Below are positions 33,159 through 52,849 of a stretch of 64,000 nt of DNA, piece after piece (positions within the stretch are counted from its first letter, which is position 1; each line of letters starts with the position of its first letter). The position numbers and the translations under genes were made by a program. The DNA lies in contig NZ_JAKKUR010000003.1 in assembly GCF_021890735.1 (NCBI RefSeq), positions 22,349 through 86,348 on the forward strand, read 5' to 3'. The DNA is from Thermanaeromonas sp. (lineage in GTDB: Bacteria > Bacillota > DSM-521 > Neomoorellales > Neomoorellaceae). The notes below the pieces were generated by a model. The model was not told where the DNA came from, did not search any database, and saw only the letters and a program-made list of their open reading frames with translations.

Positions 33159-33177
33159 AAGAAAAAGGTGGGAGATT

Positions 33178-33951
33178 ATGTTAATTACGGCAGGATTGGA
33201 TATAGGTTCCTTATCCACTAAGGCAGCCATTGTTGCAGAGGGGCAATTGTTATCCTTTTGCATTTTACCTACGGGCCGGGGCGGTTCAGAAGTGGCGGAA
33301 AGGGCTTTAGAAGAAGCCCTAAACCGGGCAAATGTTAAGCGGAAGGAGCTAAAGGGCATTGTAGCTACAGGATACGGGCGTATAAGCATACCCTTCGCGG
33401 ACCGGCGGGTTACGGAGATAACCTGTCATGCCCGCGGGGCGTGGCACCTGTTCCCTGAAGTGGCTACGGTTATAGATATAGGAGGTCAGGACAGCAAGGT
33501 GATCCGGGTGGGACCCGGGGGGAAGGTATTGGATTTTGAAATGAATGAGAAGTGCGCAGCAGGAACGGGGCGCTTCTTGGAAGTTATGGCCCGGGCCCTG
33601 GAGGTAGAGCTGGGAGAAATGGGGAAAATGGCAGTAAAGGCCCGCCGAGCAGCTCCCATAAGCAGTACATGCACGGTCTTTGCAGAATCAGAGGTGGTGT
33701 CCCTTCTAGCCGAGGGCAGGCCTTTGGAAGAGATACTTAAGGGTTTACATTATGCCGTAGCCGAGAGGGTGGTGGCTATGGCCCAGCGGTTGGGTTGGGA
33801 GAGACCCGTAGTCATGAGCGGGGGAGTGGCCAAAAATATTGGGGTGGTAAAGAGCCTGGAAGAAAGGTTGGGCACTAGTTTGTATATCCCTGCGGAACCC
33901 CAGATATTGGGCGCGTTGGGTGCGGCTTTACTGGCAGCCGAAGAAAATTAG
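33178..33951 (+). CDS. BadF/BadG/BcrA/BcrD-type ATPase, dehydratase activator (HgdC-like)
   Basis: GLDIGSLSTKAAIV, TVIDIGGQDSKVI, NEKCAAGTGRFLE motifs. Confidence 0.9.
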   Translation: MLITAGLDIGSLSTKAAIVAEGQLLSFCILPTGRGGSEVAERALEEALNRANVKRKELKGIVATGYGRISIPFADRRVTEITCHARGAWHLFPEVATVIDIGGQDSKVIRVGPGGKVLDFEMNEKCAAGTGRFLEVMARALEVELGEMGKMAVKARRAAPISSTCTVFAESEVVSLLAEGRPLEEILKGLHYAVAERVVAMAQRLGWERPVVMSGGVAKNIGVVKSLEERLGTSLYIPAEPQILGALGAALLAAEEN

Positions 33952-34044
33952 AAGGTAGCTAAACTTAAAAGCCTTTAGCAGGATTTCCTTAAGATTTGTG
34001 GAATATGTTTGCGTATTACTTTTAGGATGGGAGGACGGCAGTAA

Positions 34045-35031
34045 ATGAAAATCCTTATTTTAGTCCTTTATTTTACCGTGATGCTAGCCATAGGTTTGGC
34101 GAGCCATCGGCGTTCACGGGACATCAATGGCTTTTTCTTGGGTCACCGTAGCATAGGACCCTGGATCTCCGCCTTTGCCTATAGCACTACTTGACCTAAC
34201 TGGCTGGGGCTACTTTCGTTGGTTGTTTTAACAAGCTTGGGGCCTTGGGGGCTCCCTCAGATGGTCCAGAAATTTTATGCTATAAAGGATGAAAAAGCCA
34301 TCCGTCCTGCTACTGTAGTATCTACCTTTTTTGCCCTAGTGATTGCTACAGGAGCCTACTTTACAGGTTCCTTTGGTCGTCTATTTTTCAACAATCAGAT
34401 GCCCCTGCTAAATGGGAGGCCTAATCCTGATCTTATCATGCCTATGATTATTGAACGTTTTTTACCCCCTGGTATCGGAGTAGTAATACTGGTGTTAGTA
34501 CTAGCAGCTTCTATGTCTACTTTATCTTCTCTCGTTTTGGTAAGCAGTTCCGCAGTGGCCATAGACCTTCTTCAGGGAGCCTGGCCTAAGATCTCTAAGC
34601 GGATTGTGCTTTTGTGCTTGCGCCTTCTTTGCGTTATATTTATAGGTCTATCAGTATATATAGCTTTAAAACCCACGATTATCTTGGTTCTTATGTCCCT
34701 TTCTTGGGGTACGGTGGCCGGTGGATTCCTGGCTCCTTATATTTATGGGCTATATTGGCGTAGGACCACCAAAGCCGGGGCTTGGGCCGGGTTCCTTACC
34801 GGGGTAACCCTTTCTTTAAGTTTATCTTTCTACTACCGGTTGGATAGCAACGTAGTTCCAGCAATTGGGTGCTTGGCTATGCTTATTCCCCTGGCTGTGG
34901 TACCTGTGGTAAGCTTGTTCACCCCTGCTTTCTCTACTCAACACCTAAAACGTGTGTTCGGGGAGGAACGTTTTGAATTGTCAAGGGATTTACAGTATTG
35001 GCCGCGAGAAAGAGAACGAGTCATAGGATAA
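34045..35031 (+). pseudogene. Sodium:solute symporter (SSS) remnant with internal deletion and in-frame TGA
   Basis: N-terminal MKILILVLYFTVMLAIGLASHRRSRDINGFFLGHRSIGPWISAFAYSTT then TGA, then in frame the SSS C-terminal half (TSLGPWGLPQMVQKFYAIKDEKAIRPATVVST...). Confidence 0.85.
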
Positions 35032-35056
35032 AAGCATACTGGAGGTTGTAATCTAG

Positions 35057-36376
35057 ATGGAAAAACAAGGAGAACATGTTATTTGGGACCCAGCTAACGA
35101 GTGTCGGCCGCGGAAAGAAATAGAGGCTTTACAATTAGAAAGGTTAAGGAATATTGTTGAGTATGTGTATGAGCGGGTTCCTTTTTATCGCCAGGCCCTC
35201 GATGAGCGTGGGATACGTCCCGGGGATATTAAAAGTCTTGAAGATGTCCGGCTTCTGCCTTTCACTACCAAGGAGGATTTTCGTAAAAACTACCCTTTCG
35301 GACTTTTTGCCGTGCCTTTGAAAGAAGTAGTTCGCCTCCACGCTTCTTCGGGTACCACAGGAAAACCTGTGGTGGTGGGCTATACTCGCCGGGATATGGA
35401 GATATGGACAGAAGTAGTAGCCCGTTTGGTAACGGCGGCCGGGGTTACTGCCGGGGATGTGGCCCAGGTGGTCTTTAGCTATGGCCTTTTTACAGGAGGA
35501 TTTGGCCTGCATTATGGCCTTGAGCGGGTAGGTGCTACGGTGGTCCCGGCGGCCGCCGGAAATTCTAAACGGCATATTATGCTTATGCAAGATTTCGGGA
35601 CCACAGTATTAGTAGGCACACCTTCATATGCCTTACATTTAGCCGAAGTGGCAGAGGAGATGGGGGTGGACCCCAGGAGCCTCCCTGTTAGGCTTGGGCT
35701 TTTCGGAGGAGAAGCTTCCAGCCGGGAGATGTTAAAGGAGATTGAGCGGCGTTGGGGTATGGTGGCTACGGACAATTACGGGCTCTCAGAGGTGATGGGT
35801 CCCGGGGTCTCCGGTGAGTGCCCGTATCAGAATGGCCAGCATATAGCTGAAGATCATTTTCTCGTGGAGATTATAGATCCCGTCACAGGAGAGCCCTGCC
35901 CTCCAGGCGTGTACGGAGAAGTGGTTATAACTACCTTAACTAAAGAGGCCGTACCAGTTCTCAGGTACCGTACGAGGGATATTTCCGCCCTTATCTATGA
36001 GCCCTGCCCCTGCGGCCGCACTACCGCTCGGCTGGCTAAGATAACGGGACGTACAGACGATATGCTTATAATCCGCGGGGTAAATGTTTTTCCTTCCCAG
36101 GTAGAAAGCGTGCTTATGGAGATAGAGGAAGTATCCCCCCACTACCAGCTCGTTGTCTCACGACGGGGATACCTGGATGAACTGGAGGTACGGGTAGAAG
36201 TAAACGAGCGGTTTTTTACCGGTCGGTTTAGTGATTTAGAGGAGCTTGAAGAAAAGATAGCTGACCGCCTTAAAACGGTGCTACAGCTTAAAGCCCGTGT
36301 GCGCCTGGTAGAACCGCGTTCCATCGCCCGTAGTGAAGGTAAGGCCCAGCGGATAATCGACCTAAGACCCAAGTAG
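35057..36376 (+). CDS. paaK: Phenylacetate-CoA ligase
   Basis: [34 protein letters not shown] motifs. Confidence 0.92.
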
Positions 36377-36489
36377 GCATAAGGCTTATTCTTGCCCTGC
36401 AGACGGCTCGGGAGGAATTGGCCTTTATCATGAAGAATTAACTGTCCTGTTAATACAGGAACCTCTATAAGGAGTGAAGCTTTAGTACT

Positions 36490-38268
36490 ATGCGCGAAGT
36501 TATGTTAGGTAATCATGCGGTAGCCCGGGGAGCCTGGGAGGCCGGGGTGCGGGTAGCGGCTGCCTATCCAGGCACCCCGAGCACAGAAATTATCGAAGCT
36601 TTAGCTCAGTATCCGGATGTATATGCCGAGTGGTCGGTTAATGAAAAGGTGGCCTTGGAAGTGGCGGCCGGTGCGGCCATAGCCGGAGCGAGGGCCCTGG
36701 CGGCCATGAAGCATGTAGGTGTAAACGTTGCCTCGGACGCCCTCATGACCCTGGCTTATACGGGAATAAATGCCGGGCTGGTGTTAGTTTCTGCTGATGA
36801 TCCCAACCTGTACAGTTCTCAAAACGAACAGGACAACCGGCTATACGCCCGGTTTGCTCAGATACCTTGCCTGGAGCCGGCCGACAGCCAAGAAGCCAAA
36901 GAAATGACCAAAGTGGCTTTTGCTTTAAGTGAAGCCTTTGACACTCCTGTGATGCTCCGTTTAACCACGCGTATAGCCCATTCCCAAAGCTTAGTTGAAC
37001 TAGGGGAACGAGAAGAGGTTCCCCTGAAACCTTATACTAAGGCGCCCTCGAAATATGTGATGTTACCCGCCTTTGGCCGGGAACGACATAAGGTTGTGGA
37101 AGAGAGAAGGGCTAAACTTTCAGCGTACGCGGAGATCACCCCTTTAAATAGGGTGGAATGGGGGGATAGACGGGTAGGGGTTATTACGTCGGGAATTTCT
37201 TACCAATACGTAAAGGAGGCCCTTCCCGGTGTTTCTGTACTCAAATTGGGCTTAACCTATCCCTTGCCTAAGAACCTTATCCGGCAGTTTATAGCTGCGG
37301 TTGATGTCTGCTTTGTCGTGGAAGAGCTGGAACCCTTCTTGGAGGAGCAGATTTCTTCCTGGGGATTGCCGGTGCGGGGGAAGGAGTTTTTGCCCCGCAT
37401 CGGAGAGTTCGACCCCCGTGTGGTGGTCAAAGGTATAGGGCCTAAAGTGGCCGAGGTGAACCCCGCCCTATTAAACGAGAGTTTATTGCACGACAACTCT
37501 CCCTCCTTAAATATAACCCTGCCTGCACGTCCGCCGGTTATGTGCCCCGGGTGCCCTCACCGGGGAGTGTTTTATATCTTGCGCAAGTTAAAGCTTACTG
37601 TAGCGGGGGATATTGGATGCTATACTTTGGGAGCTTCCCCGCCCCTGAACGCCATGGATACGTGTATCTGCATGGGTGCTAGCATGGGTGTAGCTTTGGG
37701 AATGGAAAAAGCTAGGGGACAGGAATTTAGTCGCGGGTTGGTGGCCGTGATAGGGGATTCCACCTTTTTACATGCTGGGATGACGGGACTTCTGGATATA
37801 GTTTACAATCAGGGGACAACCACGGTTATCATTTTGGACAACGGTACTACGGCCATGACCGGGCACCAGGATCACCCCGGTACAGGATACACTGCTTCCC
37901 GCGCGCTGACGACCAAGATTGATCTGGAACAGGTGGTAAGGGGTCTCGGTATAAGGCGGGTACAGGTTGTCGATCCTTATGATCTCACCCGTGCCCAAGA
38001 AGTTATAAGTGCCGAAGTGGCTACGCCGGAACCTTCGGTTATTATCGCGCGGCGCCTTTGCGCCCTGCTGGCTAAGGGAACAGGTAAATATAGGGTGGTA
38101 GGTATGTATTGTCGTTCTTGCCAGTGTTGCTTAGACCTAGGCTGCCCTGCCCTTACCTTTAACGGCGAAGAGGCGGTAATTGACGAAATACAGTGTACGG
38201 GTTGCGGATTGTGCGCCCAGATTTGCCCGGCAGGAGCCATTGAAAAGGTGGTTGGGGAAAATGCATGA
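36490..38268 (+). CDS. iorA: Indolepyruvate ferredoxin oxidoreductase alpha subunit
   Basis: YPGTPSTEIIE, CPGCPHRGVFYIL, C-terminal 4Fe-4S motifs. Confidence 0.94.
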   Translation: MREVMLGNHAVARGAWEAGVRVAAAYPGTPSTEIIEALAQYPDVYAEWSVNEKVALEVAAGAAIAGARALAAMKHVGVNVASDALMTLAYTGINAGLVLVSADDPNLYSSQNEQDNRLYARFAQIPCLEPADSQEAKEMTKVAFALSEAFDTPVMLRLTTRIAHSQSLVELGEREEVPLKPYTKAPSKYVMLPAFGRERHKVVEERRAKLSAYAEITPLNRVEWGDRRVGVITSGISYQYVKEALPGVSVLKLGLTYPLPKNLIRQFIAAVDVCFVVEELEPFLEEQISSWGLPVRGKEFLPRIGEFDPRVVVKGIGPKVAEVNPALLNESLLHDNSPSLNITLPARPPVMCPGCPHRGVFYILRKLKLTVAGDIGCYTLGASPPLNAMDTCICMGASMGVALGMEKARGQEFSRGLVAVIGDSTFLHAGMTGLLDIVYNQGTTTVIILDNGTTAMTGHQDHPGTGYTASRALTTKIDLEQVVRGLGIRRVQVVDPYDLTRAQEVISAEVATPEPSVIIARRLCALLAKGTGKYRVVGMYCRSCQCCLDLGCPALTFNGEEAVIDEIQCTGCGLCAQICPAGAIEKVVGENA

Positions 38269-38845
38269 CCAGGTCATAAGTATCCTTTTAACTGGTGTAG
38301 GTGGACAAGGGACGGTTTTAGCAGGGCGTATACTCTCCCGGGCAGCAGCAAGTCTGGGTTGGGATGTTAAAGTAGCCGACTTGCATGGGATGGCCCAACG
38401 GGGGGGTAGCGTAATAACCCATGTCCGCTTTGGCACTAAAGTTTATTCCCCGGTGATTACACAAGGTACGGCCGATTATTTAGTGGCCTTCGAGAAATTG
38501 GAAGCCTGTCGCTGCTTGCCCTTCCTTAAAGGTGAAGGGGTGCTGATCGTTAACGACCAGGAGATACCGCCGCTTCCGGTTTTGACGGGTGCTTCAAGCT
38601 ATCCCGAAGGGCTTCTGGAAATGTTGAGAGCCCGCGTAAAAAAAGTGGCCATCGTAGATGCCTTAAAGAAAGCAAAGGAGGCAGGGAGCGCCAAAGCGGT
38701 AAATATGGTCCTTTTAGGTGTTCTGGCCCGGCATTTATCCATACCCCGTGAGTGCTGGGAGGAAGCTATTAGTACTTCTGTGAAATCTGAGTTCCGGGAG
38801 ATTAACCTTAAAGCCTTTACATTGGGGTGGGAATCCATAACTTAA
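38261..38845 (+). CDS. iorB: Indolepyruvate ferredoxin oxidoreductase beta subunit
   Basis: LLTGVGGQGTVLAGRIL motif; start MHDQ at 38261 overlapping the iorA stop (shorter than the track ORF). Confidence 0.92.
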   Translation: MHDQVISILLTGVGGQGTVLAGRILSRAAASLGWDVKVADLHGMAQRGGSVITHVRFGTKVYSPVITQGTADYLVAFEKLEACRCLPFLKGEGVLIVNDQEIPPLPVLTGASSYPEGLLEMLRARVKKVAIVDALKKAKEAGSAKAVNMVLLGVLARHLSIPRECWEEAISTSVKSEFREINLKAFTLGWESIT

Positions 38846-38993: not shown

Positions 38994-39044
38994 TTGACAG
39001 CTTGGGTATAGCATGCTACACTTAGCTATAGGAAAACGTTTTCC
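38994..39044 (+). promoter_or_regulatory. Sigma-A-like promoter (TTGACA-17-TACACT) with downstream LacI-type operator GGAAAACGTTTTCC
   Basis: TTGACA 38994-38999, TACACT 39017-39022, perfect 14-bp palindrome 39031-39044 just before the lacI-family start. Confidence 0.75.
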
Positions 39045-39061: not shown

Positions 39062-40051
39062 ATGGTAACCATAAAAGATGTTGCTCGACGGGCTGGAGTC
39101 TCCGTAACTACCGTATCACGCGTACTGAATAACAGTCCCCACCCTATAAGCCCGGAGACAAGAAGAAAGGTTCTTGAAGCAGTAGCGGAGCTTGGTTTTT
39201 GCCCCAACGCTGCGGCCCGCAGCCTTCAGCTTAACGAGACGCGAATGATAGGACTCATGCTACCCGATGTAGCTAACCCGTACTATTCAGGTATTGTACG
39301 GGGGATCGAAGATGTGGCCCACCAGGAAGGTTATACCGTCATCCTCTGCAATACCGACCGCTCCCGCGAAAGAACCCTCAAGTATCTTCGTGTATTGCGG
39401 GAAAAGAGGGTAGATGGGGTAATCTTTATGGGCGGGGGTGTGGTGGAAGACGCTAGGGAGGACCACTTTTTTCAGAAAGAGGATATCCCTACCGTAGTGA
39501 TAGGACGCCATTTCGGATTCTTCCCTTCTGTGCAAATCGATAATGCTGATGCGGCAAGACGAGCAGTTATACATTTGCTTGAACGAGGACACAGGGATAT
39601 TGCTTGCATCGCCGGTCCCTCTTCGTCTACCACTTCGCGGGACCGCCTGGCTGGATACAGGCAGGCCTTAGAGGAAAAGGGGCTGAAATACGAACCTTCC
39701 CGCATAGTCCATGCTGACTTTACTCCCCACGGAGGATACGAGGCCGTGCGGAAGTTATTAGAACACAAGCCGTGGCCTACGGCTCTTCTGGCGCATAATG
39801 ATCTCATGGCTGTAGGTGCAATAAAGGCTCTGGCGGATGAAGGCTTATCAGTACCGCGGGATATGGCCGTAGTGGGTTTTGACGATATTCCCTTGGCTTC
39901 TTACGTTTTGCCTCGGTTGACTACGGTTAGGGTTCCCGTATACGAGCTTGGTGCTACAGCTATGCGCCTTTTGAGGGATTTGCTGGGGGGTAGAACGGTC
40001 CCGCAAGTGACTTTGTTACCAGTGGAGCTGATTATCCGCGAGTCAGCCTGA
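39062..40051 (+). CDS. LacI family transcriptional regulator
   Basis: TIKDVARRAGVSVTTVSRVLN HTH and periplasmic-binding-like C-domain. Confidence 0.96.
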   Translation: MVTIKDVARRAGVSVTTVSRVLNNSPHPISPETRRKVLEAVAELGFCPNAAARSLQLNETRMIGLMLPDVANPYYSGIVRGIEDVAHQEGYTVILCNTDRSRERTLKYLRVLREKRVDGVIFMGGGVVEDAREDHFFQKEDIPTVVIGRHFGFFPSVQIDNADAARRAVIHLLERGHRDIACIAGPSSSTTSRDRLAGYRQALEEKGLKYEPSRIVHADFTPHGGYEAVRKLLEHKPWPTALLAHNDLMAVGAIKALADEGLSVPRDMAVVGFDDIPLASYVLPRLTTVRVPVYELGATAMRLLRDLLGGRTVPQVTLLPVELIIRESA

Positions 40052-40294
40052 ATCGTGGATAAGAACGTGGATAACAATAGAGCGGTATAGATAAATGGAT
40101 AAATAGATCAAAATAGACATTATAACCATTTATTTCCTCCGATTAAGTAAATTTAAGAAATTATCTCGGGTGAGCCAAAAAAGGGTAGCCGCGGCTATTC
40201 CCGTTAACTCAATATATGACTTAATTAATAGCCTAAACAACAAAAAATGTGACCTAAAAATTTAAACCAAAATAATTCCTGGAGGTTTTAGGAG

Positions 40295-41146
40295 ATGGCC
40301 AAGAGACACAATTTACTAGAATGTTCTTATGTCGAGGCTCAGGAATGGTTTAAGGAAACCGATGTAGTTTTGGTCCCCGTAGGAAGCTGCGAAAAACACG
40401 GCGCCCATGTACCCTTAGGCACAGATAGTTTCACCACTATCTCCGTGACCGAGCGTGCAGCAAAAATAGCCAATGTTCCCTACACACCCCTCTTGCCCTT
40501 CGGATATTCTCCGCACCACATGGGCGAAGTCGGGGAAGGCTGCGGTACTATAACCTTGTCTGCAGAGACCTTCCGCCGGGTCCTCTACGATATTGCCCGC
40601 AGCCTCATTTACCACGGCGCCAACAAAATTATTTACGTATCCCACCATGGCTCTAACACCAAACCCATCGATGAGTTGCTGCGCAAGATCCGTTACCAGA
40701 CGGGGGCTTTTGTAGCCTGGTACAAGACGCCTACGGAAAGGGAATGTGAAGTAGTGAAGGGGATAATTGAAGGACCGCCCGAGGAGACGCCGGGCTGGCA
40801 TGCTGGAGAAATGGAGACATCCCAAGTGATGGCCTATGATGAGACATTAGTGGATATGAGCCGGGCGGTCAGGGACATTGCCCACGCTCCCCGGTGGATG
40901 GGGCCGGAGTTCTCCAAGATAGACGGTACTGCTACCGTGAAATTCCGCGGTTCAGAGAACATAATTGTGCCTATGGAGCACCACGAGTATTCGGATAGCG
41001 CGACAATTGGTAACCCCTTCCGGGGGAGCAAGGAAAAAGGATTAAAGCTTTTTGAAAAAGAGGCGGAACACTTGGCGGCCTTTATTAACGAAGTTAAGAA
41101 ATTCCCCTTCCAGGTTAAGAACCGTGACTTCCCTGAAAGGGCCTAG
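40295..41146 (+). CDS. Creatininase family protein (possibly IolN-like hydrolase)
   Basis: VLVPVGSCEKHGAHVPLGTD and WHAGEMETSQVMAY motifs. Confidence 0.88.
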   Translation: MAKRHNLLECSYVEAQEWFKETDVVLVPVGSCEKHGAHVPLGTDSFTTISVTERAAKIANVPYTPLLPFGYSPHHMGEVGEGCGTITLSAETFRRVLYDIARSLIYHGANKIIYVSHHGSNTKPIDELLRKIRYQTGAFVAWYKTPTERECEVVKGIIEGPPEETPGWHAGEMETSQVMAYDETLVDMSRAVRDIAHAPRWMGPEFSKIDGTATVKFRGSENIIVPMEHHEYSDSATIGNPFRGSKEKGLKLFEKEAEHLAAFINEVKKFPFQVKNRDFPERA

Positions 41147-41231
41147 ACTATGGGCGGGTATTCCCGGGGCGTAACCCTAAAGCGGCTGCGCCCCGGGGAC
41201 AGCTTCCCGCCGCAAAGAGAGGTGCAAAGAG

Positions 41232-41828
41232 TTGTCCTGGCCGGCTGATTTAGAGGCCTTGAGAGAGGAGCTAGTGGAGGTAACGCGAAAACTTTATGAG
41301 CGGGGACTTTCTTCGGGAACCAGCGGAAACACCAGCGCCCGGCTTCCGCACATGCCAGATAAGGTGCTTATTAAAGCCAGCGGTCGCTCCTTTGGTGAGG
41401 TAGAAAAAAAAGATTTTCTACTAGTGAATTTAGACGGGGAAGTACTGGAAGGAGAGGGAAAACCTTCTAAAGAGATAAGGTTTCACTTGGGTATTTACCG
41501 CGTGAGACCAGAAATCAATGCCGTGGTCCACGGTCATTCCCCGTACGCCACCGCGTATGCCACGGCCTTCGGTGAACTCCCCGTAGTTACCGCCGCGGCT
41601 GAAATGGGCTTACATCGAGTTGCAGTAGTGGATTTTGCACCGCCCGGTTCCGAAGAATTGGCGCGTTTGGTCGTTGAAGCCTTCCGGGAGTCTGGGGTGA
41701 AAGCTGCAGTTTTAAGCAAGCACGGCTTTGTGACAGTAGGAGAAAATATAAGAAAGGCCTACTACCTTGCAGATGTCTTAGAGGACAATGCCAGGGTAGC
41801 TTGTATCCTTAAAAGCCTTAAAGGCTAG
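41232..41828 (+). CDS. Class II aldolase/adducin family protein
   Basis: GTSGNTSARL, VVHGHSPYATAYA, LSKHGFVTVG motifs. Confidence 0.92.
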   Translation: MSWPADLEALREELVEVTRKLYERGLSSGTSGNTSARLPHMPDKVLIKASGRSFGEVEKKDFLLVNLDGEVLEGEGKPSKEIRFHLGIYRVRPEINAVVHGHSPYATAYATAFGELPVVTAAAEMGLHRVAVVDFAPPGSEELARLVVEAFRESGVKAAVLSKHGFVTVGENIRKAYYLADVLEDNARVACILKSLKG

Positions 41829-41909
41829 GCGGGCGAAACCCAGACCAGCGTTTTAGGGTAGCACTCGGCAAACAACGAAATTTCAGGTAAATTTAAGGGG
41901 GCGTTTGGG

Positions 41910-42827
41910 TTGGAAGGCTCCATCTACCGCTACATGAAGGTGGGCATTGTCCATTTCAAGGCTTTTCCGGAAACGGCATACGGCACCGGTCCCATCCTGG
42001 AGACCTTGCGCCGTATAGCGGAGGACGACTTCTTTACGGCTGTAGAAGTAGGCTGGATGCGGGATGTAAAGGTCCGGCTGGAGGCTGCTCACATGTTGAA
42101 AGTTTCTCATTTGGAAGTATGTTATGCCACCCAGCCGGCCATGTTCAGTCAGAAGCTTAATCTAAATTCCCTAGATCCCCAGGAAAGAAAGAAGGCTATT
42201 AAGCAGGTATTCAATTGCCTTAAGGAAGCGTTAGACCTGGGAGCTACGGCGGTGCGGATACCCGCAGGTAAAGATCCCGGTCCGGAAAAGAGAGAGGAAG
42301 CTAAAAAGCTCTTAGTAGATTCCTTAGCCCAGATCTGCGAGTATGCCCGGGAGATGGGGGATCCTCTAATTACCTTAAAAATTTTCGACCGGGATATTGA
42401 CAAGGAGTCTCTCATAGGTCCCTTCCGCGATGCCCTGGATATAGCCCGGCAGCTTAAGCCCCAATATCCTAAATTTGGTCTCCTGGCCGATCTTTCCCAT
42501 TTTCCTCTGCTCAGGGAAAAACCGGAGGAAGCCCTGCCTTTAGTGAAGGATTACCTTATGGCCTTCCACATCGGTAACTGCGTAATGAAGGACAGGCGTC
42601 ACCCCCTATACGGCGATTTGCAGCCCCGTTTTGGAGTGGAGGATGGGGAAATAGACGTGGCCGAGGTGGCAGGTTACTTCCGCCTGCTGGTGGACATGGG
42701 GCTGGTGGGACCCGAAAAGAGACCGGTTTTGAGCGCCGAAGTTCGGCCGCTTCTGCCGGGCGAGACTTCAGAGCTTATTCTGGCCAATGCTAAGCGTGTA
42801 ATCAGGGAAGCCTGGGCCCTGGCCTAA
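41910..42827 (+). CDS. TIM-barrel sugar phosphate isomerase/epimerase family protein
   Basis: Overall TIM-barrel AP-endonuclease-2-like pattern (FGLLADLSHFPLL, MAFHIGNCVMKD). Confidence 0.72.
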   Translation: MEGSIYRYMKVGIVHFKAFPETAYGTGPILETLRRIAEDDFFTAVEVGWMRDVKVRLEAAHMLKVSHLEVCYATQPAMFSQKLNLNSLDPQERKKAIKQVFNCLKEALDLGATAVRIPAGKDPGPEKREEAKKLLVDSLAQICEYAREMGDPLITLKIFDRDIDKESLIGPFRDALDIARQLKPQYPKFGLLADLSHFPLLREKPEEALPLVKDYLMAFHIGNCVMKDRRHPLYGDLQPRFGVEDGEIDVAEVAGYFRLLVDMGLVGPEKRPVLSAEVRPLLPGETSELILANAKRVIREAWALA

Positions 42828-42839
42828 GGGGAGGAAGTT

Positions 42840-44096
42840 GTGGTGCCCCTTCCATCTATAGCTATAGTTGCTACCGTAGACACCAAAGAGGCAGAAACCC
42901 GCTTTCTAAAAGAGTTTATTAGCTCCCGTGGTTTCGCGGCGCCGGTACTGGATGTGAGTACCTACTCTCCCCACAATTTTCAGGCAGATTATCCCCGCGA
43001 AGTTATAAGCCGGTTGGCGGGGGTGGAATTTAACGATCTTAAAGGTTTGCGCCGGGACGCTATGATGGAGACCATGGGCCGGGGAGCGGCCCGGGTACTT
43101 AAGGAGCTGTACCAAAGAGGAGAGCTTAAAGGAGTAGTGGGGATCGGTGGGAACCAGGGAACGGCCATAGCTTCTATAGCCATGCGCTCCCTGCCCTTTG
43201 GAGTTCCCAAGGTTATCGTTTCTACTGTGGCCTCAGGAAACGTCAGACCTTACGTACAATACAAAGATATAATGATGCTTTTTTCGGTAGCCGATCTTCT
43301 CGGCGGTCCCAATACGGTGAGCCGGTCAATTTTGGCTAATGCTGCGGCGGCTGTCATCGGAATGGCCCAACATGGCTCAAGCCTTAAAAGAGGGGATAGG
43401 CCGGTTATCACAGTTACCGCCCTCGGTAACACCAATGCGGCGGTCACCAGGGCTAGGGACTGGCTGGAGGAAAAGGGCTACGAGGTTATCGCGTTTCACG
43501 CTTCCGGGACATGCGGTTCAGCCATGGAAGAACTCATTGAAGAGGGGTGGGTAGCGGGAGTACTGGATCTTACACCCCACGAATTGGTGGGCGAGGTTTT
43601 AGGTGATGACATCTATACCCCGTTACGGCCCCGGCTGGAGGCGGCGGGGAAAAGAGGTGTTCCGCAAGTGGTGGCACCGGGTGGACTAGATTACTTTTGC
43701 TTTGGCCCGCCCGATACCATTCCCCCTCGTTACCGGAACAGGCCTACCCACTACCATAACCCCTACAATACCAACGTAAGGGCTACCGCCGAGGAGCTCG
43801 CTAAGGTGGGCCGGGTTCTGGCGGGGAAACTCAATGCGTCCCGGGGGCCGGTGGCCGTGCTTATTCCCTTGCGCGGCTTTTCGGAAAACGGGCGGGAGGG
43901 AGGCCCGCTACACGACCCCCAAGCTGATGAGGCCCTGGTAAAGGCTTTGGAAGCGCATCTTAAACCGGAGATCCGGCTAATTAAGGTAGACGCCCATATC
44001 AATGATGCGGCTTTTGCTGAACTGGCTGCAAGCATCCTGCACGAGATGATCGGGTCAACTGGGAAATTTAAGGAAATAAATGCACAAACTCTTTAA
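42840..44096 (+). CDS. Tm-1-like ATP-binding domain protein (UPF0261)
   Basis: IAIVATVDTKEAETRFLKEFI, GIGGNQGTAIA, TALGNTNAAV motifs. Confidence 0.88.
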   Translation: MVPLPSIAIVATVDTKEAETRFLKEFISSRGFAAPVLDVSTYSPHNFQADYPREVISRLAGVEFNDLKGLRRDAMMETMGRGAARVLKELYQRGELKGVVGIGGNQGTAIASIAMRSLPFGVPKVIVSTVASGNVRPYVQYKDIMMLFSVADLLGGPNTVSRSILANAAAAVIGMAQHGSSLKRGDRPVITVTALGNTNAAVTRARDWLEEKGYEVIAFHASGTCGSAMEELIEEGWVAGVLDLTPHELVGEVLGDDIYTPLRPRLEAAGKRGVPQVVAPGGLDYFCFGPPDTIPPRYRNRPTHYHNPYNTNVRATAEELAKVGRVLAGKLNASRGPVAVLIPLRGFSENGREGGPLHDPQADEALVKALEAHLKPEIRLIKVDAHINDAAFAELAASILHEMIGSTGKFKEINAQTL

Positions 44097-44125
44097 AACT
44101 CTTTAAAAGAAAGGGGTTATGGCTT

Positions 44126-45202
44126 ATGGAATTCACCATTCCCGACAAGATGAAAGCTTTAGTTCTTTTTGGCCCCAACGACGTCAGGCTGGTGGAAAAG
44201 CCAGTTCCTAAGCCCGGCCCGGGAGAGGTACTGGTAAGGGTAGCGGCGTGCGGGATCTGCGGTACCGATGTAAAAATTATTACAAAAGGTATGCCGAAAA
44301 TGCCGCCTTATGGCGAATTTACCTTTGGTCATGAGTGGGCCGGTACCGTGGTAGCCGTGGGGGAAACGGTTGACGAGTTTAAGGTAGGGGACCGAGTAGC
44401 CATCGAAGCCCACAAGGGATGCGGCCGTTGCGAAAATTGCATCGACGGGAAGTACACCGCCTGTTTAAACTATGGTCGCCTGGATAAAGGCCACCGGGCC
44501 GCAGGGATGACAGTGGACGGGGGATTTGCTGAGTACGCCGTTCAGCACGTAAATTCTGTATATAAAATCCCCGATAACATTTCCTTCAATGAAGCAACCT
44601 ATGTGACTACGGCGGGATGTGCCCTTTATGCCATAGATAAAAGCGGAGGTTATATTGCAGGCGATACCATAGTTGTTATAGGCCCCGGGCCAATAGGTCT
44701 ATCTGTAGTCCAGTGCGCTAGAGCCTTGGGAGCAGAAAGGATAATACTGGTCGGAACCCGCGAAGACCGCTTGAGCAAAGGCCGCCTGCTGGGCGCCACC
44801 CATACCATCAACGTGCGGGAGGAACCTGCTCCCTTAGATAAGATTTTGGCCTTGACCAACGGCAAGGGTGCGGAAAGAGTCTTTGAATGTGCGGGAACCT
44901 CCGATAGCTTTGAGCTGGCCATTAAGTCGGCTAAAAAGGGCGGAGTAGTGGTACTGGTCTCCTTCTATAAGGAGCCGGTTGTGGCCAACCTGGATTATGT
45001 GGTCCTTAACCAGATAAGCCTTCTTACTGTGCGTGGCGAAGGCAATCGCAACTGCCAGCGGGCCCTTTCCCTTATGGCCCAGGGGAAAATCGATGCTAAA
45101 CCTATTATGACCCATGCTTTCCCCTTGGAGGAGTTCCATACAGCCCTGGATTACTTTGTAAACCGTAAAGACGGAGCCATGAAGGTGGTGGTAAATCCTT
45201 AA
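44126..45202 (+). CDS. Zinc-dependent alcohol/polyol dehydrogenase (MDR family)
   Basis: GICGTDVKI, GHEWAGTVVAVGE, structural Zn CGRCENCIDGKYTAC, VIGPGPIGLSVVQ. Confidence 0.92.
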   Translation: MEFTIPDKMKALVLFGPNDVRLVEKPVPKPGPGEVLVRVAACGICGTDVKIITKGMPKMPPYGEFTFGHEWAGTVVAVGETVDEFKVGDRVAIEAHKGCGRCENCIDGKYTACLNYGRLDKGHRAAGMTVDGGFAEYAVQHVNSVYKIPDNISFNEATYVTTAGCALYAIDKSGGYIAGDTIVVIGPGPIGLSVVQCARALGAERIILVGTREDRLSKGRLLGATHTINVREEPAPLDKILALTNGKGAERVFECAGTSDSFELAIKSAKKGGVVVLVSFYKEPVVANLDYVVLNQISLLTVRGEGNRNCQRALSLMAQGKIDAKPIMTHAFPLEEFHTALDYFVNRKDGAMKVVVNP

Positions 45203-45263
45203 GCTAAGCTATTATTCCTTTTTGACATTTTGAACTTATGTTTATTTTAAAAAGGAGGTACAG

Positions 45264-46283
45264 GTGGAGCTTATGATTAAGAAATTTTTAGCCATTTTAA
45301 CGGCAAGCATAATGCTGGCGGGCTTAGGCCTCGTAGCAGCGGGGTGCGGAGGGGCCCAAGGGTCTTCGAATGGGAAGACCCAAGAGCAAAAGATAGAGTT
45401 TCCCACCAAGCCCATTGAAATGACCGTCCTTTTTGCGCCAGGTAGTGGAGCCGATCTTTTGGCACGTAAAGTGGCGGAGCTGGCCGGGAAAGAGCTTGGG
45501 CAACCTATCACCGTGGTTAACCGGACGGGAGCTGGAGGGGCCGTAGGATACAGTTACGTAAAAGAGCAAAAACCGGACGGCTACTCCATTGTATGGAACT
45601 CCAATTCCATCAATACTGCTTATCATGCCGGGAATATGAATTTCAACTACACTGCCTTTAGCGGGGTGGCCGAACTTACCACCGAGCCGGTAAGCATAGC
45701 CGTTAAGGCCGATGCACCCTGGAAGGATATAAACGAGTTTATAGAGTATGCCAAGAAAAATCCCGGAAAAGTACGTATCGGAAATTCGGGTAACGGTAGC
45801 TTCACTCACCTGGTAGCCGTAGCTTTAGAAAACAAAACGGGTGCCAAATTTACCCATGTGCCCTTCGGGCAGGGCGGACTGGCTATTTCTAGCGTGTTAG
45901 GGGGCCAGATCGAAGCGAGCTCCCAGCTACCGGCGGAAATTATGTCTCAGGTAAAGGCCGGCCAGGTAAGGATCCTGGCCATCACAGGGGAAGAAAGGCT
46001 TAAGATTTTACCCGATGTACCGACTTTCAAAGAGAAGGGCATCCCCCTTACCCTTTCGCTGTGGCGTGGTATCGCGGTACCTGCCGGTACGCCTGAGTCG
46101 GTAATCAAAAAGCTGGAGGAAGCCTTTAAGAAGGTGGCCGAGAACCCCGAGTTCAAGAAATTTGCCGAAGACATGGGGGCCAACATTGAATTTCGCGGGG
46201 CCAAGGAGTTCGACCAGTTCATAGCGGAGCAAGACAAGGAACTGGCGGCGTTGATGGAGCAGGTCGGCATGAAGAAACAATAG
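45264..46283 (+). CDS. tctC: Tripartite tricarboxylate transporter substrate-binding lipoprotein
   Basis: Lipobox LVAAGCGG; VNRTGAGGAVGYSYV, HVPFGQGGLAISSVLGGQIE motifs. Confidence 0.93.
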   Translation: MELMIKKFLAILTASIMLAGLGLVAAGCGGAQGSSNGKTQEQKIEFPTKPIEMTVLFAPGSGADLLARKVAELAGKELGQPITVVNRTGAGGAVGYSYVKEQKPDGYSIVWNSNSINTAYHAGNMNFNYTAFSGVAELTTEPVSIAVKADAPWKDINEFIEYAKKNPGKVRIGNSGNGSFTHLVAVALENKTGAKFTHVPFGQGGLAISSVLGGQIEASSQLPAEIMSQVKAGQVRILAITGEERLKILPDVPTFKEKGIPLTLSLWRGIAVPAGTPESVIKKLEEAFKKVAENPEFKKFAEDMGANIEFRGAKEFDQFIAEQDKELAALMEQVGMKKQ

Positions 46284-46301
46284 GATTTTGTCTGTAAAAC
46301 C

Positions 46302-46328
46302 GGGGACACCTCGCCTAGGGGTGTCCCC
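46302..46328 (+). other. 9-bp perfect GC-rich hairpin between tctC and tctB
   Basis: GGGGACACC-tcgcctagg-GGTGTCCCC, no T-tract. Confidence 0.75.
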
Positions 46329-46350
46329 TAAGGCCTGGGGAGTTGGTAGT

Positions 46351-46812
46351 GTGGCTAAGGAGATAGGAAGTATTTTAGTGATAGCAGGTATCGGATTATT
46401 TTTTATGATATATTCCCTTCAATACAATCTGGGCAGTCTTGAGACTCCTGGAGAGGCTGTTTTTCCGCTACTTGTGGCCATTGCGGTTATAGCCATGGCA
46501 GGTTGGTTACTGTTTGTCAATATATTAGCCGGTAGAAACCAACGGCCAAGTGAAAAGGAAGAAAACAATAATAATACCAACGGTACGCGGAAAGTAGTGT
46601 CTCTGGTGGTGCTGAATGCCTTTATACTATGGGGGATGAAGTTTTTAGGGTTTTTCACTAGTAGCTTTATCTTAGTCTGCCTGTTCTGTAAATTGCTAGG
46701 GGTAAAGAGATGGAGCCAAGCCATAGGGGTAGCGTTAGGCGCTGTTTTGGGAGCCTACCTGATTTTTTCCTTCTGGCTACAGGTTTCGTTTCCCAAAGGT
46801 CTCTTTATTTAA
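46351..46812 (+). CDS. tctB: Tripartite tricarboxylate transporter TctB
   Basis: Four TM small subunit between tctC and tctA; GTG at 46351 with ggggag RBS preferred over the track start. Confidence 0.85.
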   Translation: MAKEIGSILVIAGIGLFFMIYSLQYNLGSLETPGEAVFPLLVAIAVIAMAGWLLFVNILAGRNQRPSEKEENNNNTNGTRKVVSLVVLNAFILWGMKFLGFFTSSFILVCLFCKLLGVKRWSQAIGVALGAVLGAYLIFSFWLQVSFPKGLFI

Positions 46813-46832
46813 AGGGAGGTCCTGCTTAAATT

Positions 46833-48314
46833 ATGTCCGTTCTTTCGGCCCTGGAGATAGCTCTTACTCCGTATAACCTCTTGGCCTGCTTTGTAGGAGT
46901 GCTAGTCGGAACATTAACCGGAGTCTTGCCAGGATTGGGTCCGGCTGCGGCCATGGCCCTGCTCTTGCCCTTAACTGTAAAGTTGGGGCCTACGGCAGGT
47001 TTGATCATGCTGGCGGGGATCTATTACGGAGCCATGTACGGTGGCTCTACTACCTCTATTCTGGTAAACGTACCCGGAGAGCCGGCCAGTGTGGTTACTT
47101 GCTTGGAAGGATATAAGCTGGCCCAAAAGGGACGGGCGGGAGCTGCCTTGGCTGTCAGCGCTTTGGGATCCTTTGTAGCCGGAACCATTGGCATAGTTCT
47201 GCTTCAGCTTTTTGCGCCGCCCTTGGCTAAAGCAGCCCTGGCCTTCGGACCGGCAGAGTTTTTCGCCTTGACGGTGGTGGGCGTCATTGTGCTTTCCAAT
47301 CTTTCGGGTAAAGGCGGCATAAAGGCGTTCCTAATGATAGCGCTGGGGCTCCTGCTCTCCACTGTAGGATTGGATCCTTTAGGCGGGGTTAACAGGTTTA
47401 CTTTTAACCAGCCTTTGGCGGGTACGGGTTTAAGTTTTATCGCCATTGCTGCTGGCCTTTTCGGAGTAGGTGAGATCTTGTGGCTGGCCAGCCAGCCTGA
47501 AGAGAAGATCGAACCTGTAGCCAAGGTAAGGCTACGGGACCTTTATCCAACTAAAGAAGAAATAAAGAGGGCTTTGCCCTCCATGTTTAGAGGGACTCTG
47601 CTCGGCTTTTTAATCGGTCTTATTCCCGGCCCGAGCGCTACTATCGCTTCCTTTGCCTCCTACAGTTTGGAAAAAAGCACCTCTAAACACAAAGAGGAGT
47701 TCGGTAACGGGGCCATCGAAGGGGTGGCCGGACCGGAATCCGCTAACAACGCGGCTAGCGTAGGGGCCATGATACCCTTGCTTTCCCTCGGGATACCTTT
47801 CTCTCCGGCCATTGCCGTCCTCTTAAGCGGTATGCTTTTAGTAGGAGTTACGCCCGGCCCCCTGTTCCTGCGGGAACATCCGGATGCCTTCTGGGGTGTA
47901 ATCGGCAGCATGTATATAGGCAATATAATGCTGCTGATTCTAAACCTGCCCCTGGTAGGAATATGGGCCAGTATCACCCGAATTCCTTATAAATACCTTA
48001 TGCCCGTAGTCCTGCTGTTTTGCATCGTAGGGGCCTATGCCGATAACAACAATATATTCGACGTATGGGTGATGCTGGCCGCGGGAGTGGCGGGATATCT
48101 GATGCGGAAATACGAATACGATCCCGCTCCCCTCCTGATCGGACTGGTAATGGGTCCCATTATGGAACGATCCCTGCGCCAGGCCTTGATCATGGGCCGG
48201 GGAGACCTGGCGATATTTGTAGCCTCACCTATTTCCCTGGCCATGTACGCCATGGCCCTGGCTTTAGTCGTTTTTATGCTGGTCAAAAAACCCCGGGTTA
48301 TGAGTGCAGATTGA
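46833..48314 (+). CDS. tctA: Tripartite tricarboxylate transporter permease TctA
   Basis: VGTLTGVLPGLGPAAAMALLLPLT, YGAMYGGSTTSILVNVPGE motifs. Confidence 0.96.
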   Translation: MSVLSALEIALTPYNLLACFVGVLVGTLTGVLPGLGPAAAMALLLPLTVKLGPTAGLIMLAGIYYGAMYGGSTTSILVNVPGEPASVVTCLEGYKLAQKGRAGAALAVSALGSFVAGTIGIVLLQLFAPPLAKAALAFGPAEFFALTVVGVIVLSNLSGKGGIKAFLMIALGLLLSTVGLDPLGGVNRFTFNQPLAGTGLSFIAIAAGLFGVGEILWLASQPEEKIEPVAKVRLRDLYPTKEEIKRALPSMFRGTLLGFLIGLIPGPSATIASFASYSLEKSTSKHKEEFGNGAIEGVAGPESANNAASVGAMIPLLSLGIPFSPAIAVLLSGMLLVGVTPGPLFLREHPDAFWGVIGSMYIGNIMLLILNLPLVGIWASITRIPYKYLMPVVLLFCIVGAYADNNNIFDVWVMLAAGVAGYLMRKYEYDPAPLLIGLVMGPIMERSLRQALIMGRGDLAIFVASPISLAMYAMALALVVFMLVKKPRVMSAD

Positions 48315-48361: not shown

Positions 48362-49669
48362 ATGCGCCAGGTTAAGGGGGCAGCCAATTTGCAGGATAGA
48401 TCGGATTGGTGGCTCTGCGCCCTTCAGTGGGTGGTATTTCACTTGGGGGTGATTATTTCCGTACCTGTTATCGTCGGCAGCGCCCTGGGCATGAATACAC
48501 TGGAAATAGCCAGGTTAAGCCAGATGGCTTTTTTCTTGACCGGCCTTTCCAGTTTACTTCAGGTCAAGTTCGGGCACGGGGTACTACTAATGGAAGGACC
48601 GGCGGCCCCCTGGTGGGCCGCCTATGTTCTTCTGGCCGGTGTGGCGGTCGGCACAGGAAAGCACCTGGCATCGGTGCGTACGGATATCGAAGGAGCTATG
48701 ATAGCCGTAGGGGTTGTTTTGGCGATAATGGGATGGGCCGGGGTAATCACTAAATGGCGTTCCCTCTTTACACCCCGCATCACGGGCGTGCTCCTCACGG
48801 TATTGGGGTTGCAGATAGGTGGTGTGGGGGTTAAGGGTATCGCTAGCGGCGGGATAAGGCTTTTCATTGTTGCTCTGTTGGTCTTGGTGCTGGTGGTCTA
48901 TCTCACTTTAAACGGCAAGGGAATGCTAAAGCAGGGAGCTATCATAGTGGGTGTAGCCCTAGGATGGCTATTGAGCTTGGTAGTGGGAGCAGCTCCTCTT
49001 CCAGAAGTAAGAGGCATGGGGCTTATTTCCCTGCCCTGCCTTTTTCCGTGGGGGAAACCTACCTTTGACCCGGGGACCCTGTTGTCGCTCATCTTGCTTG
49101 GGATAATGCTTGTACCCAATGTTATAGGCAGCATTTCGGCCTGGGAAGCTGCTACGGGCGATAAGGTGCCCGCTAGAAGGTATGATAGAGGTTTACTCGC
49201 GAGCGGTGTGGCCAATATTATGAGCGGCCTTGGAGGCGGTGTCGGAACTATTCCCTTTGCCATCTCGGCTGCGCTCGTGTCCGTTACGGGCGACAAGCGC
49301 TCCCGTCCCTTTATCTTCGCCTGTATAATGTTCATGGCCCTGGGCCTGCTACCTCCTTTAGGCAGGATTGTAGGTAGTATCCCCCAACCGGTAGCTGCCG
49401 CAGTATTGCTGGTATCGGGGAGCTCCCTGGTGGTAATAGGTATAAAGGATATGTTACGCGAGGAGGTTTCCTTGCGGGAGACATTTATAATAGGCCTCAG
49501 CCTTCTTACAGGGATAGGAGTGATGCTTTTACCCCCGGGATACTGGGTAAGGGTGCCTTCTTGGGCAGCAGGTGCTTTGAGCAACGGTGTTATTGTAGGG
49601 ACTTTGGCCAGTATGTTGTTGGAACACGTAGTTCTTAAAAGAAAACGCCAGGAAAAGTTAACTGGCTAA
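48362..49669 (+). CDS. Nucleobase:cation symporter-2 (xanthine/uracil permease) family
   Basis: 12-TM; GVGTIPFAISAALVSVTGDKRSRP; start codon uncertain. Confidence 0.8.
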   Translation: MRQVKGAANLQDRSDWWLCALQWVVFHLGVIISVPVIVGSALGMNTLEIARLSQMAFFLTGLSSLLQVKFGHGVLLMEGPAAPWWAAYVLLAGVAVGTGKHLASVRTDIEGAMIAVGVVLAIMGWAGVITKWRSLFTPRITGVLLTVLGLQIGGVGVKGIASGGIRLFIVALLVLVLVVYLTLNGKGMLKQGAIIVGVALGWLLSLVVGAAPLPEVRGMGLISLPCLFPWGKPTFDPGTLLSLILLGIMLVPNVIGSISAWEAATGDKVPARRYDRGLLASGVANIMSGLGGGVGTIPFAISAALVSVTGDKRSRPFIFACIMFMALGLLPPLGRIVGSIPQPVAAAVLLVSGSSLVVIGIKDMLREEVSLRETFIIGLSLLTGIGVMLLPPGYWVRVPSWAAGALSNGVIVGTLASMLLEHVVLKRKRQEKLTG

Positions 49670-50587: not shown

Positions 50588-52849
50588 GTGCCTTTACGGG
50601 TGGGTATCCCGCGCGGACTGTCTTATTATTATATTTTTCCCTTTATACAGGGTTTCCTGGAAACCCTGGGAGCTGAAGTGGTGGTGTCGCCGCCCAGTGA
50701 CGGGCGGACCCTACTAGATATGGTCTGTTGCCCCACGGATGAACCTTGTGTCTCGGTAAAACTTTATTTTGCCCATGCCAAAAGGCTATTGGAAAAAGGT
50801 GTAGACTACCTGTTCGTTCCCGTTCTTTCTAGCGTGGATAAGGAGAACTACTGTTGCCCGAAGCTTATAGGAATCGCAGATATGCTTAAAAACGGGCTTG
50901 GGCTAAGTGAGGAACAGTTGCTAGCTCCCGAATGGAACGAAAGGGAAAAGCCAGGTTGTTGGAAGGAAAGCCTTCTGGAAGTGGCAGCTCGCCTGGGGGC
51001 TCGTCGTAACGAGGCAGAGGAAGCTATAAGGGTGGGAGAGGAAAGGCAGGCCCTTTTTGAAAAGTTAACCCGCCAAGGTTTGACCGTGGTAGAGGCCTAT
51101 GCCCGGATGTCTGGCCAGGACAAAAGACCCCGGCGCCGCTTTGACCCCCTGGCCGAGTATGATCCCTCGCAAGTTATAGGAGTGCTAGGTCACCCCTATG
51201 TCCTTTATGATATAGTGGGACATAACCTGGTCGATAGATTGCGCGAGTACGGGCAGGTTTGGACGGCAGAGATGGCCCCCCAAGAAGAGGTATTAAAAGA
51301 AGTGGGATCTCTTTGGGAAGGGAACAGGATGTGGGCCTATGAGGCCCGGCTGCTGGGGGCCGGATTTTACTTTTTGCGTCGCGGCTTGGTAAATAAGCTT
51401 ATCCTGGTGGAAGCTTTCTCCTGCGGCCCTGCTTCTGTGCTGGAAGCCTTCCTTGAGGCCGAGGCCGAAGCACGGGGCGTACCTTTTTTGCTACTTACGG
51501 TGGACGAGCATACGGGAGAAGCCGGGTTCGTTACCCGGCTGGAAGCCTTCTTGGATACTAGTGCTGGAGAGCCGCGAGTGTCCCCCGTAAGGTTACGGGT
51601 CCCCTCCAGCGCGAGGACCGAATCGTTAGTTATGGAGGGCGGAATAACGGGACCCGGTGACAACCGCAGGCTTCCGATTTCGTCCGTGCCTGCCCTAAGA
51701 AGGGAGGAGCTAAAAGTAGGAGCCCCAGGCATGGGGCTTTTGGATATCGCCCTGGAGTCGGCTCTGGCGGAGTGCGGGGTAGAAATGATTCCCACACCGC
51801 CTTTAAGTAAAACTGTCGTGGAGCTGGGTAAAGAGCTGGCTCCCGAATTTATCTGTTATCCTATGGTTACCACCTTAGGGCAGATGCGGGCTGTCTTGGA
51901 AAAAGGTGCTAATACCATAATTATGGTGGGCGGCAAGGGAAGGTGCCGCCTAGGCTGGTATGCCCAGCTCCAGGAACTCCTTCTTAAGGCTAAAGGATAC
52001 GAGTTCCGGTTAGTAATCATAGATTCTCCGGTACCGTTAAAGACCCGCTGGAAGGCGTTCCGCCAGGCCTTGCGGGAAGCTACGGGTAATGCTCCTTTGT
52101 GGAGGATCGCCAAAGGATTGTACTTAGGGTATCATAAAATGGCTGCCTTAGACCGGGGTGAGGCCTGGGTCCGGCGTAAAAGGGCTTATGAAAAAAATAG
52201 AGGTACGGCGGATAAGGCATGGAGGAGATTTGTGCGGCAGGTCAAGGCAGCGGGTTATGTCGGGCAGGTTAAAAAAGCAGAAAGAGAGCTTTGGGAGGAG
52301 CTCGAAGCCATACCGGAAGAAAAACTTGCTCCCTTGAGGGTGAAGATTATAGGAGAGATTTATACAGTTTTAGAGAGTTTTGTTAATCAAGAAATCGAAC
52401 GTTTCTTAGCCTCCCGGCCCGATTTAAGGGTAGAAGTAGTACGCAATCTTACCGCTACCCAGTGGTTTGATCTCCACGTGCTGCATAAGCAAAAAGCGCG
52501 TGAGCACCACCAGCGAGTTATATCTGCTGCCGCACCTTACTTGAGGGCACCTGTAGGAGGACACGGGCAAGAGAGCGTAGGCGAACTGGTCCTGGCCAAA
52601 GAAGAAGGTTTTGACGGAGTGATACACCTTTTACCCTTTACCTGTATGCCCGAAACGGTTTCCCAGAATATAATGGTACCTTTAAGCGAGAAACTAGATT
52701 TGCCATTGCTTTCGTTGATAATCAACGAGCAGACCGGGACGGCAGGTTGGGAGACGCGGCTTGAGGCCTTCTTGGAAGTTCTGGCTGAAAGACGGGAAGA
52801 GGGCTTAAGTTATGGAGGTGGAAGATTTGGAGTGCTTCTTGGGTATTGA
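50588..52849 (+). CDS. Acyl-CoA dehydratase activase-related protein, apparent fusion of two DUF2229-like units (753 aa)
   Basis: VGIPRGLSYYYIFPFIQGFLETLGAEVVVSP; CCPTDEPCVSVK; repeated TRLEAFLD/TRLEAFLE segments; paired with an activator ATPase. Confidence 0.8.
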   Translation: MPLRVGIPRGLSYYYIFPFIQGFLETLGAEVVVSPPSDGRTLLDMVCCPTDEPCVSVKLYFAHAKRLLEKGVDYLFVPVLSSVDKENYCCPKLIGIADMLKNGLGLSEEQLLAPEWNEREKPGCWKESLLEVAARLGARRNEAEEAIRVGEERQALFEKLTRQGLTVVEAYARMSGQDKRPRRRFDPLAEYDPSQVIGVLGHPYVLYDIVGHNLVDRLREYGQVWTAEMAPQEEVLKEVGSLWEGNRMWAYEARLLGAGFYFLRRGLVNKLILVEAFSCGPASVLEAFLEAEAEARGVPFLLLTVDEHTGEAGFVTRLEAFLDTSAGEPRVSPVRLRVPSSARTESLVMEGGITGPGDNRRLPISSVPALRREELKVGAPGMGLLDIALESALAECGVEMIPTPPLSKTVVELGKELAPEFICYPMVTTLGQMRAVLEKGANTIIMVGGKGRCRLGWYAQLQELLLKAKGYEFRLVIIDSPVPLKTRWKAFRQALREATGNAPLWRIAKGLYLGYHKMAALDRGEAWVRRKRAYEKNRGTADKAWRRFVRQVKAAGYVGQVKKAERELWEELEAIPEEKLAPLRVKIIGEIYTVLESFVNQEIERFLASRPDLRVEVVRNLTATQWFDLHVLHKQKAREHHQRVISAAAPYLRAPVGGHGQESVGELVLAKEEGFDGVIHLLPFTCMPETVSQNIMVPLSEKLDLPLLSLIINEQTGTAGWETRLEAFLEVLAERREEGLSYGGGRFGVLLGY

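Follow-up and report, generated by a model that had tools for sequence, protein, structure and literature searches.

The systems closest to the operon analysed here are the Thermotoga-type myo-inositol pathway, which brings together in a single operon a Zn-dehydrogenase (IolM), a creatininase-superfamily hydrolase (IolN) and a xylose-isomerase-like TIM barrel (IolO), and the OtnI/OtnK/OtnC and related four-carbon acid-sugar pathways, which combine the functions of a TIM isomerase, a kinase and a class II aldolase-fold lyase. A third point of comparison is the acetovanillone catabolism of Novosphingobium aromaticivorans, which is reported to begin with the single-component kinase MarK (PMC13101465). 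The window (the whole 64,000-nucleotide stretch of contig NZ_JAKKUR010000003.1 from Thermanaeromonas sp., positions 22,349 to 86,348) carries an operon that resembles each of them in part. It encodes a LacI-family regulator, a creatininase-type hydrolase, a class II aldolase-fold lyase, a TIM barrel, a UPF0261/Tm-1-like protein, a Zn-dependent medium-chain dehydrogenase (Zn-ADH) and the TctC, TctB and TctA components of a tripartite tricarboxylate transporter (Table 1). The locus is a real, self-regulated bacterial operon. We give an even chance to the reading that it is a dedicated LacI-repressed operon through which the cell takes up and degrades a hydroxylated carboxylate, be it a sugar acid, the lactone of such an acid or a cyclic polyol acid. 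What was observed directly for this reading comprises the gene content, its conservation, the operator, the regulon link, the catalytic residues and the homology to a structurally characterised protein, Saro_1862.

Nine open reading frames, all on the forward strand, occupy positions 39062-48314, where the first-pass annotation of this DNA had placed nine co-directional genes with LacI first and a complete TctCBA last; coordinates, strand and Pfam families bear out that description, and all three Tct components are there. The intergenic gaps within the operon are 4-85 bp, except for 243 bp between the LacI and creatininase genes. A sigma-70-like promoter had the top score near the operon start (10/12), and a predicted LacI operator lies directly downstream of its -10 box. 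The palindrome core GAAAACGTTTTC was present in 14 retrieved loci, and this core stands upstream of lacI in Moorella and in metagenome-assembled genomes (MAGs) of Bacillota and Thermodesulfobacteriota. Within the window's family, 7 genomes contain the full 14-mer GGAAAACGTTTTCC exactly once, always before this lacI by coordinates. The sole further genome with the exact 14-mer (G309) carries it within an acetolactate-synthase-like gene region; this match was taken as chance. No operator was found in the 243-bp gap between the LacI and creatininase genes. In one genome where the gene for the same type of TIM barrel is unlinked, a one-mismatch operator precedes that gene by about 55 bp, which ties the TIM barrel to the LacI regulon.

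The conservation of the gene set was surveyed by scanning 84,980 species genomes with the creatininase-type proteins of the window and of Thermus, which yielded 77 loci. Neighbouring genes were scored by tblastn, and counts were made on the 40 loci with at least 3.5 kb on either side of the creatininase gene. Near this gene, UPF0261 was found in 36 of the 40 loci, and the counts for Zn-ADH and for a C-C lyase were 37 and 33, respectively. All three were present together in 29 loci, which shows that these genes did not come together by chance. The lyase was a class II aldolase in 24 loci and a DapA-like or HpaI-like protein in the remainder; two lyase types co-occurred in one locus only, where the second rested on a weak 27% match. 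The module is spread over several phyla, and Thermus plasmids carry the same gene set in a divergent arrangement. The proposal of an uncharacterised LacI-controlled catabolic cluster is supported. No earlier description of this gene set was found in the literature searched, the coverage of which was partial; within it, the gene combination, its breadth, a role of UPF0261 outside aromatic catabolism and a Glu-to-Lys change in the TIM barrel are likewise undescribed. The enzyme families themselves are already known.

In the UPF0261 tree, every cluster with a DapA- or HpaI-type lyase falls into one clade of 17 (support 100/100); clusters with a class II aldolase lie outside it. This divides the clusters into two subtypes that perhaps use different substrates. 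Type A has LacI, the class II aldolase, Tct or other transporters and often the TIM barrel. Type B has DapA or HpaI, SDR, a D-2-hydroxyacid dehydrogenase and a Liv-type ABC transporter; examples with a DapA-like or HpaI-like aldolase in place of the class II aldolase are L107:6807-7697 and L099:4718-5500 with their neighbours. In the Bacillota MAG loci L080, L082, L090, L107 and L109, UPF0261, DapA and creatininase genes are followed by a split transketolase and pentose-phosphate-type genes, those of L080 being RpiB-like, transaldolase and FBA-like. Loci L046 and L117 come from a MAG labelled Planctomycetota, with a creatininase-type protein 82% and a TIM barrel 69% identical to those of the window and with the same operator. 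A mis-binned contig or a recent transfer probably explains this, judging by the UPF0261 sequence, which clusters with Bacillota. Genes for GHMP (mevalonate-kinase-like) proteins were seen in L059 and L064, and in L059, L064, L091, L094 and L055 the creatininase gene has M24 (DddP-like) genes in its vicinity. RidA-family genes lie in or beside the operon in L043, L050, L052, L061, L062 and L086, and L050 encodes a triple RidA protein.

The UPF0261 protein has the PF06792 and PF23189 domains, both above gathering scores. It matches Saro_1862 of N. aromaticivorans, the structure of which was solved with acetovanillone (PDB 9mpy), over the full length (35% identity by structure alignment, E 2.7e-71) and tomato Tm-1 at about 32% identity; the DTK, GG and ASG motifs are common to the window protein and Saro_1862. 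Saro_1862 is probably MarK, an identity that we infer from the substrate, the strain and the group. If this is right, UPF0261 would be a small-molecule kinase family, and the suggestion that the Tm-1-like protein may be a kinase gains support from this full-length homology. A kinase role would also suit a pathway with the kinase directly ahead of an aldolase, and it agrees with published reports that pair UPF0261 and the TIM-barrel COG5564 (PMC8963296, PMC5028733). Compared with Saro_1862 and the N-terminal region of Tm-1 (3wrw-3wry), the full-length UPF0261 architecture is the same, but the operon partners here are an aldolase, a hydrolase and an ADH for an apparently aliphatic acid. The UPF0261 group of the window has an invariant His247 beside Glu248, unlike Saro_1862 and Tm-1; Asp143, His220, Asp243 and Glu248 are conserved. 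In the open papers searched, no metabolic role was found for UPF0261/Tm-1-like proteins outside aromatic catabolism. Equating UPF0261 plus a TIM barrel with HpeHI/AcvAB was considered and dropped, since HpeHI is an ATP-grasp dikinase (PMC12167813).

The creatininase-type protein reached 92 bits against the NCBIfam creatininase model (cut-off 235), 80 bits against MftE (172) and 74 bits against IolN (245). A common signature (HHM, ER, WH, MEHHEY) runs through 72 proteins, and Ser120 aligns with Glu122 of creatininase, which we take to be a metal ligand, so the protein does not qualify as creatininase proper. By its sequence it is best placed in a distinct subfamily that is neither creatininase, MftE nor IolN. 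The Zn-ADH scored 216 bits against the IolM model (cut-off 450) and the TIM barrel 29 bits against IolO (300). None of the three enzymes thus reaches its equivalog cut-off, and the kinship with the Thermotoga inositol route drawn in the first-pass annotation holds only at the superfamily level. Furthermore, Pfam detected no GFO/IDH/MocA gene, hence no IolG, in the operon, which instead adds UPF0261, the class II aldolase and the Tct transporter. The same genome (G000) encodes IolM on contig C8 (519 bits) and, on contig C142, an IolN truncated by the contig end (180 bits; complete copies in relatives have about 310 bits), with an IolO-like protein (265 bits) 1.5 kb beyond it. A congener (G372) has the complete cluster of a sugar ABC transporter, IolM (519), IolN (313), IolG (485) and an IolO-like protein (262 bits). 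The IolO-like proteins of both genomes score slightly under the NCBIfam cut-off. Sequence identity between the window proteins and the genuine Iol proteins is only 23-33%, and the former appear from these comparisons to be paralogues of IolM, IolN and IolO acting on another compound.

In the class II aldolase, Glu81 and His100, His102 and His164 are invariant in 38 of 38 proteins, as are Asn33, Ser79 and Lys80. Asn33 and Ser79 sit at the phosphate-binding positions of FucA. The protein matches PDB 6btd with 105 bits and, like the L-fuculose-phosphate aldolase family (6btd, 1fua), keeps the catalytic Glu and the three zinc His; on the other hand, Lys80 is invariant where FucA-type proteins have Ser, and the invariant PS-K-E motif resembles PDB 6voq. 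In the Zn-ADH, the catalytic and structural zinc residues Cys45, His69 and Cys99, 102, 105 and 113 are invariant in 54 proteins.

The TIM barrel, whose AlphaFold model has a pLDDT (predicted local distance difference test) of 94, found its best Foldseek matches among D-psicose/D-tagatose 3-epimerases and TM_0416. The first metal-ligand Glu is replaced by Lys157 in every cluster member, and the other ligands Asp194, His220 and Glu277 are largely retained, leaving the canonical set of four incomplete. The Glu is kept in IolO and in all relatives of 28-50% identity that were examined. The activity implied by the label of TIM-barrel epimerase therefore cannot be transferred from the family. Several Bacillota carry the TIM gene at a separate genomic site. 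It is a lineage-specific step whose chemistry, judging by the substituted ligand, has probably been altered. A function as hydroxypyruvate isomerase was suggested by a 38% identical relative in E. gilvus that adjoins genes for a thiamine pyrophosphate (TPP) enzyme, a 2-hydroxyacid dehydrogenase and a glycerate kinase. It was not adopted, as relatives of this kind retain the catalytic Glu and stand without the rest of the cluster.

The same genomic slot is filled in different loci by Tct, DASS (PF00939), L-lactate permease (PF02652), TAXI-TRAP (PF16868), NMT1/Ssu-type ABC or Liv-type ABC transporters; in the window's own clade the transporters are Tct and DASS. Most of these families carry carboxylates. 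It is mainly on account of these interchangeable, mostly carboxylate-type transporters that a carboxylate rather than a cyclitol is predicted as the substrate, in agreement with the first-pass annotation, which had favoured an acid over inositol.

We hypothesize the following step order, chemistry, substrate class and kinase activity for the hydroxylated-carboxylate operon. TctCBA, and possibly also an NCS2 permease encoded after it, would bring in the acid, and oxidation by the Zn-ADH would convert a secondary hydroxyl into a ketone. The resulting keto compound would then be cut by the creatininase-type metallohydrolase, through ring opening or C-C/C-X hydrolysis, and the Lys-type TIM barrel, in lineages that have it, may isomerise or rearrange the hydrolysis product. 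UPF0261 would phosphorylate this product, and the class II aldolase-fold lyase would split the phosphorylated keto acid by a retro-aldol reaction, or decarboxylate it, to a triose-phosphate- or pyruvate-level product. A bolder and more tentative version takes it for a phylum-crossing pathway in which UPF0261 acts as an aliphatic keto-acid kinase with interchangeable lyases, and the TIM barrel as a Lys-for-Glu former epimerase with another mechanism, for which a Schiff base, general acid-base catalysis or a changed metal site are candidates.

Several points weigh against the hydroxylated-carboxylate reading. Whole genomes of actinobacteria contain the other genes of the set but no TIM gene, so the TIM step is not universal. 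The separate UPF0261 clade goes with pyruvate-type aldolases (DapA, HpaI), and its substrate may differ. The transporters of some members (Liv-type ABC, NMT1/Ssu-type ABC, NCS2) are atypical for sugar acids, and RidA-type proteins may hint at a nitrogenous substrate or a reactive intermediate in some members. Finally, the kinase step depends on the inferred identity of MarK with Saro_1862 and UPF0261.

Alternatively, the substrate might be a nitrogen-containing or heterocyclic carboxylate and the creatininase-type enzyme an amidohydrolase acting on a C-N bond, as creatininase does. Creatininase is indeed its top NCBIfam match, RidA-family genes occur in several loci, and the NMT1/Ssu-type, Liv-type and NCS2 transporters and the M24 neighbours would suit such a compound. 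However, the clusters contain no recurrent deaminase, aminotransferase or urease-type gene, the Zn-ADH, aldolase and TIM barrel suggest a polyhydroxylated compound, and the window's clade uses Tct and DASS; we consider this alternative unlikely. An OtnI-OtnK-OtnC-like, tetronate-type route on a short 2- or 3-oxo sugar acid phosphate, with UPF0261 standing in for the DUF1537 kinase and with the ADH and the creatininase-type enzyme preparing the acid, is distinctly unlikely. It would account for the trio of TIM barrel, kinase and class II aldolase-fold protein and for the carboxylate transporters, and both the likeness of the PS-K-E motif to 6voq and the 122 bits against the NCBIfam 3-oxo-tetronate 4-phosphate decarboxylase (OtnC) model point the same way. 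Yet this model has a cut-off of 250 and is not the top match, the TIM barrel is missing from many clusters and has its metal ligand replaced, the kinase comes from another family, and the Otn pathway needs no hydrolase, whereas the window has both a creatininase-type hydrolase and a Zn-ADH in addition.

DapA- and HpaI-type enzymes usually act on unphosphorylated 2-keto acids. Their partnership with UPF0261, for which no biochemical data were found in catabolic clusters of this kind, would agree with a nucleotide- or ligand-binding or otherwise catalytic protein that is not a kinase, in a pathway without a phosphorylated intermediate. The full-length identity to Saro_1862, from a strain whose acetovanillone route starts with a single-component kinase (PMC13101465), argues against this, and we regard it as quite improbable. 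The idea that the operon encodes a variant Thermotoga-type inositol pathway is hardly credible and was dropped: the three superfamilies are identical and the Foldseek matches of the TIM barrel include T. maritima TM_0416 (2zvr, 5b7y, 5h1w), but the bit scores are far too low, genuine genes stand elsewhere in the genome with a complete cluster in the congener, sequence identity is low and the TIM metal ligand is lost.

The comparison corrects an attractive but wrong annotation as inositol catabolism. Bacteria, fungi and land plants all have UPF0261/Tm-1-like proteins, whose place in a conserved small-molecule pathway with fixed partners makes the chemistry of the family accessible from one operon. 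The two aldolase subtypes, the mappable operator and the exchangeable transporter are handles for substrate identification, and the Glu-to-Lys change poses a clear mechanistic question in a large, well-studied enzyme superfamily.

Table 1. Features of the operon, in coordinates of the window, with the evidence for each.
Feature	Position	Strand	Evidence
Sigma-70-like promoter of lacI	38994..39022	+	TTGACA-17-TACACT, TG before -10; position read off the sequence
Predicted LacI operator	39031..39044	.	Perfect palindrome GGAAAACGTTTTCC
LacI-family transcription regulator	39062..40051	+	Pfam LacI and Peripla_BP_3; below all NCBIfam equivalog cut-offs
Creatininase-family hydrolase, own subfamily	40295..41146	+	Pfam Creatininase 184 bits (cut-off 31); conservation across 72 members
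Class II aldolase/adducin-fold C-C lyase	41232..41828	+	Pfam Aldolase_II 178 bits
Xylose-isomerase-like TIM barrel, Lys157 replacing first metal-ligand Glu	41910..42827	+	Pfam AP_endonuc_2 55 bits
UPF0261/Tm-1-like protein, probable ATP-dependent small-molecule kinase	42840..44096	+	Pfam N 187 bits, C 247 bits
Zn-dependent medium-chain dehydrogenase (Zn-ADH)	44126..45202	+	Pfam ADH_N/ADH_zinc_N
TctC periplasmic binding protein	45264..46283	+	Pfam 208.6 bits
TctB small membrane subunit	46288..46812	+	Pfam 71.6 bits
TctA large membrane subunit	46833..48314	+	Pfam 530 bits
NCS2/Xan_ur_permease family transporter, probable tenth operon gene	48362..49669	+	Pfam 209.7 bits

The NCS2 permease gene, absent from the first-pass annotation, is co-directional and starts 47 bp after TctA. 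It probably belongs to the same transcription unit, because in the spirochaete loci L068 and L070 an NCS2 gene lies within the homologous operon, between the TctA and creatininase genes. NCS2-family genes were also seen near the cluster in L079, L089 and L099. On either side of the operon, the window contains two sets of HGD-D (2-hydroxyglutaryl-CoA dehydratase-type) and BadF-type activase genes, at 30827-38845 and 50588-53846, the first of which is followed by genes for an SSF symporter, a PaaK-like ligase and a POR/indolepyruvate-type oxidoreductase.

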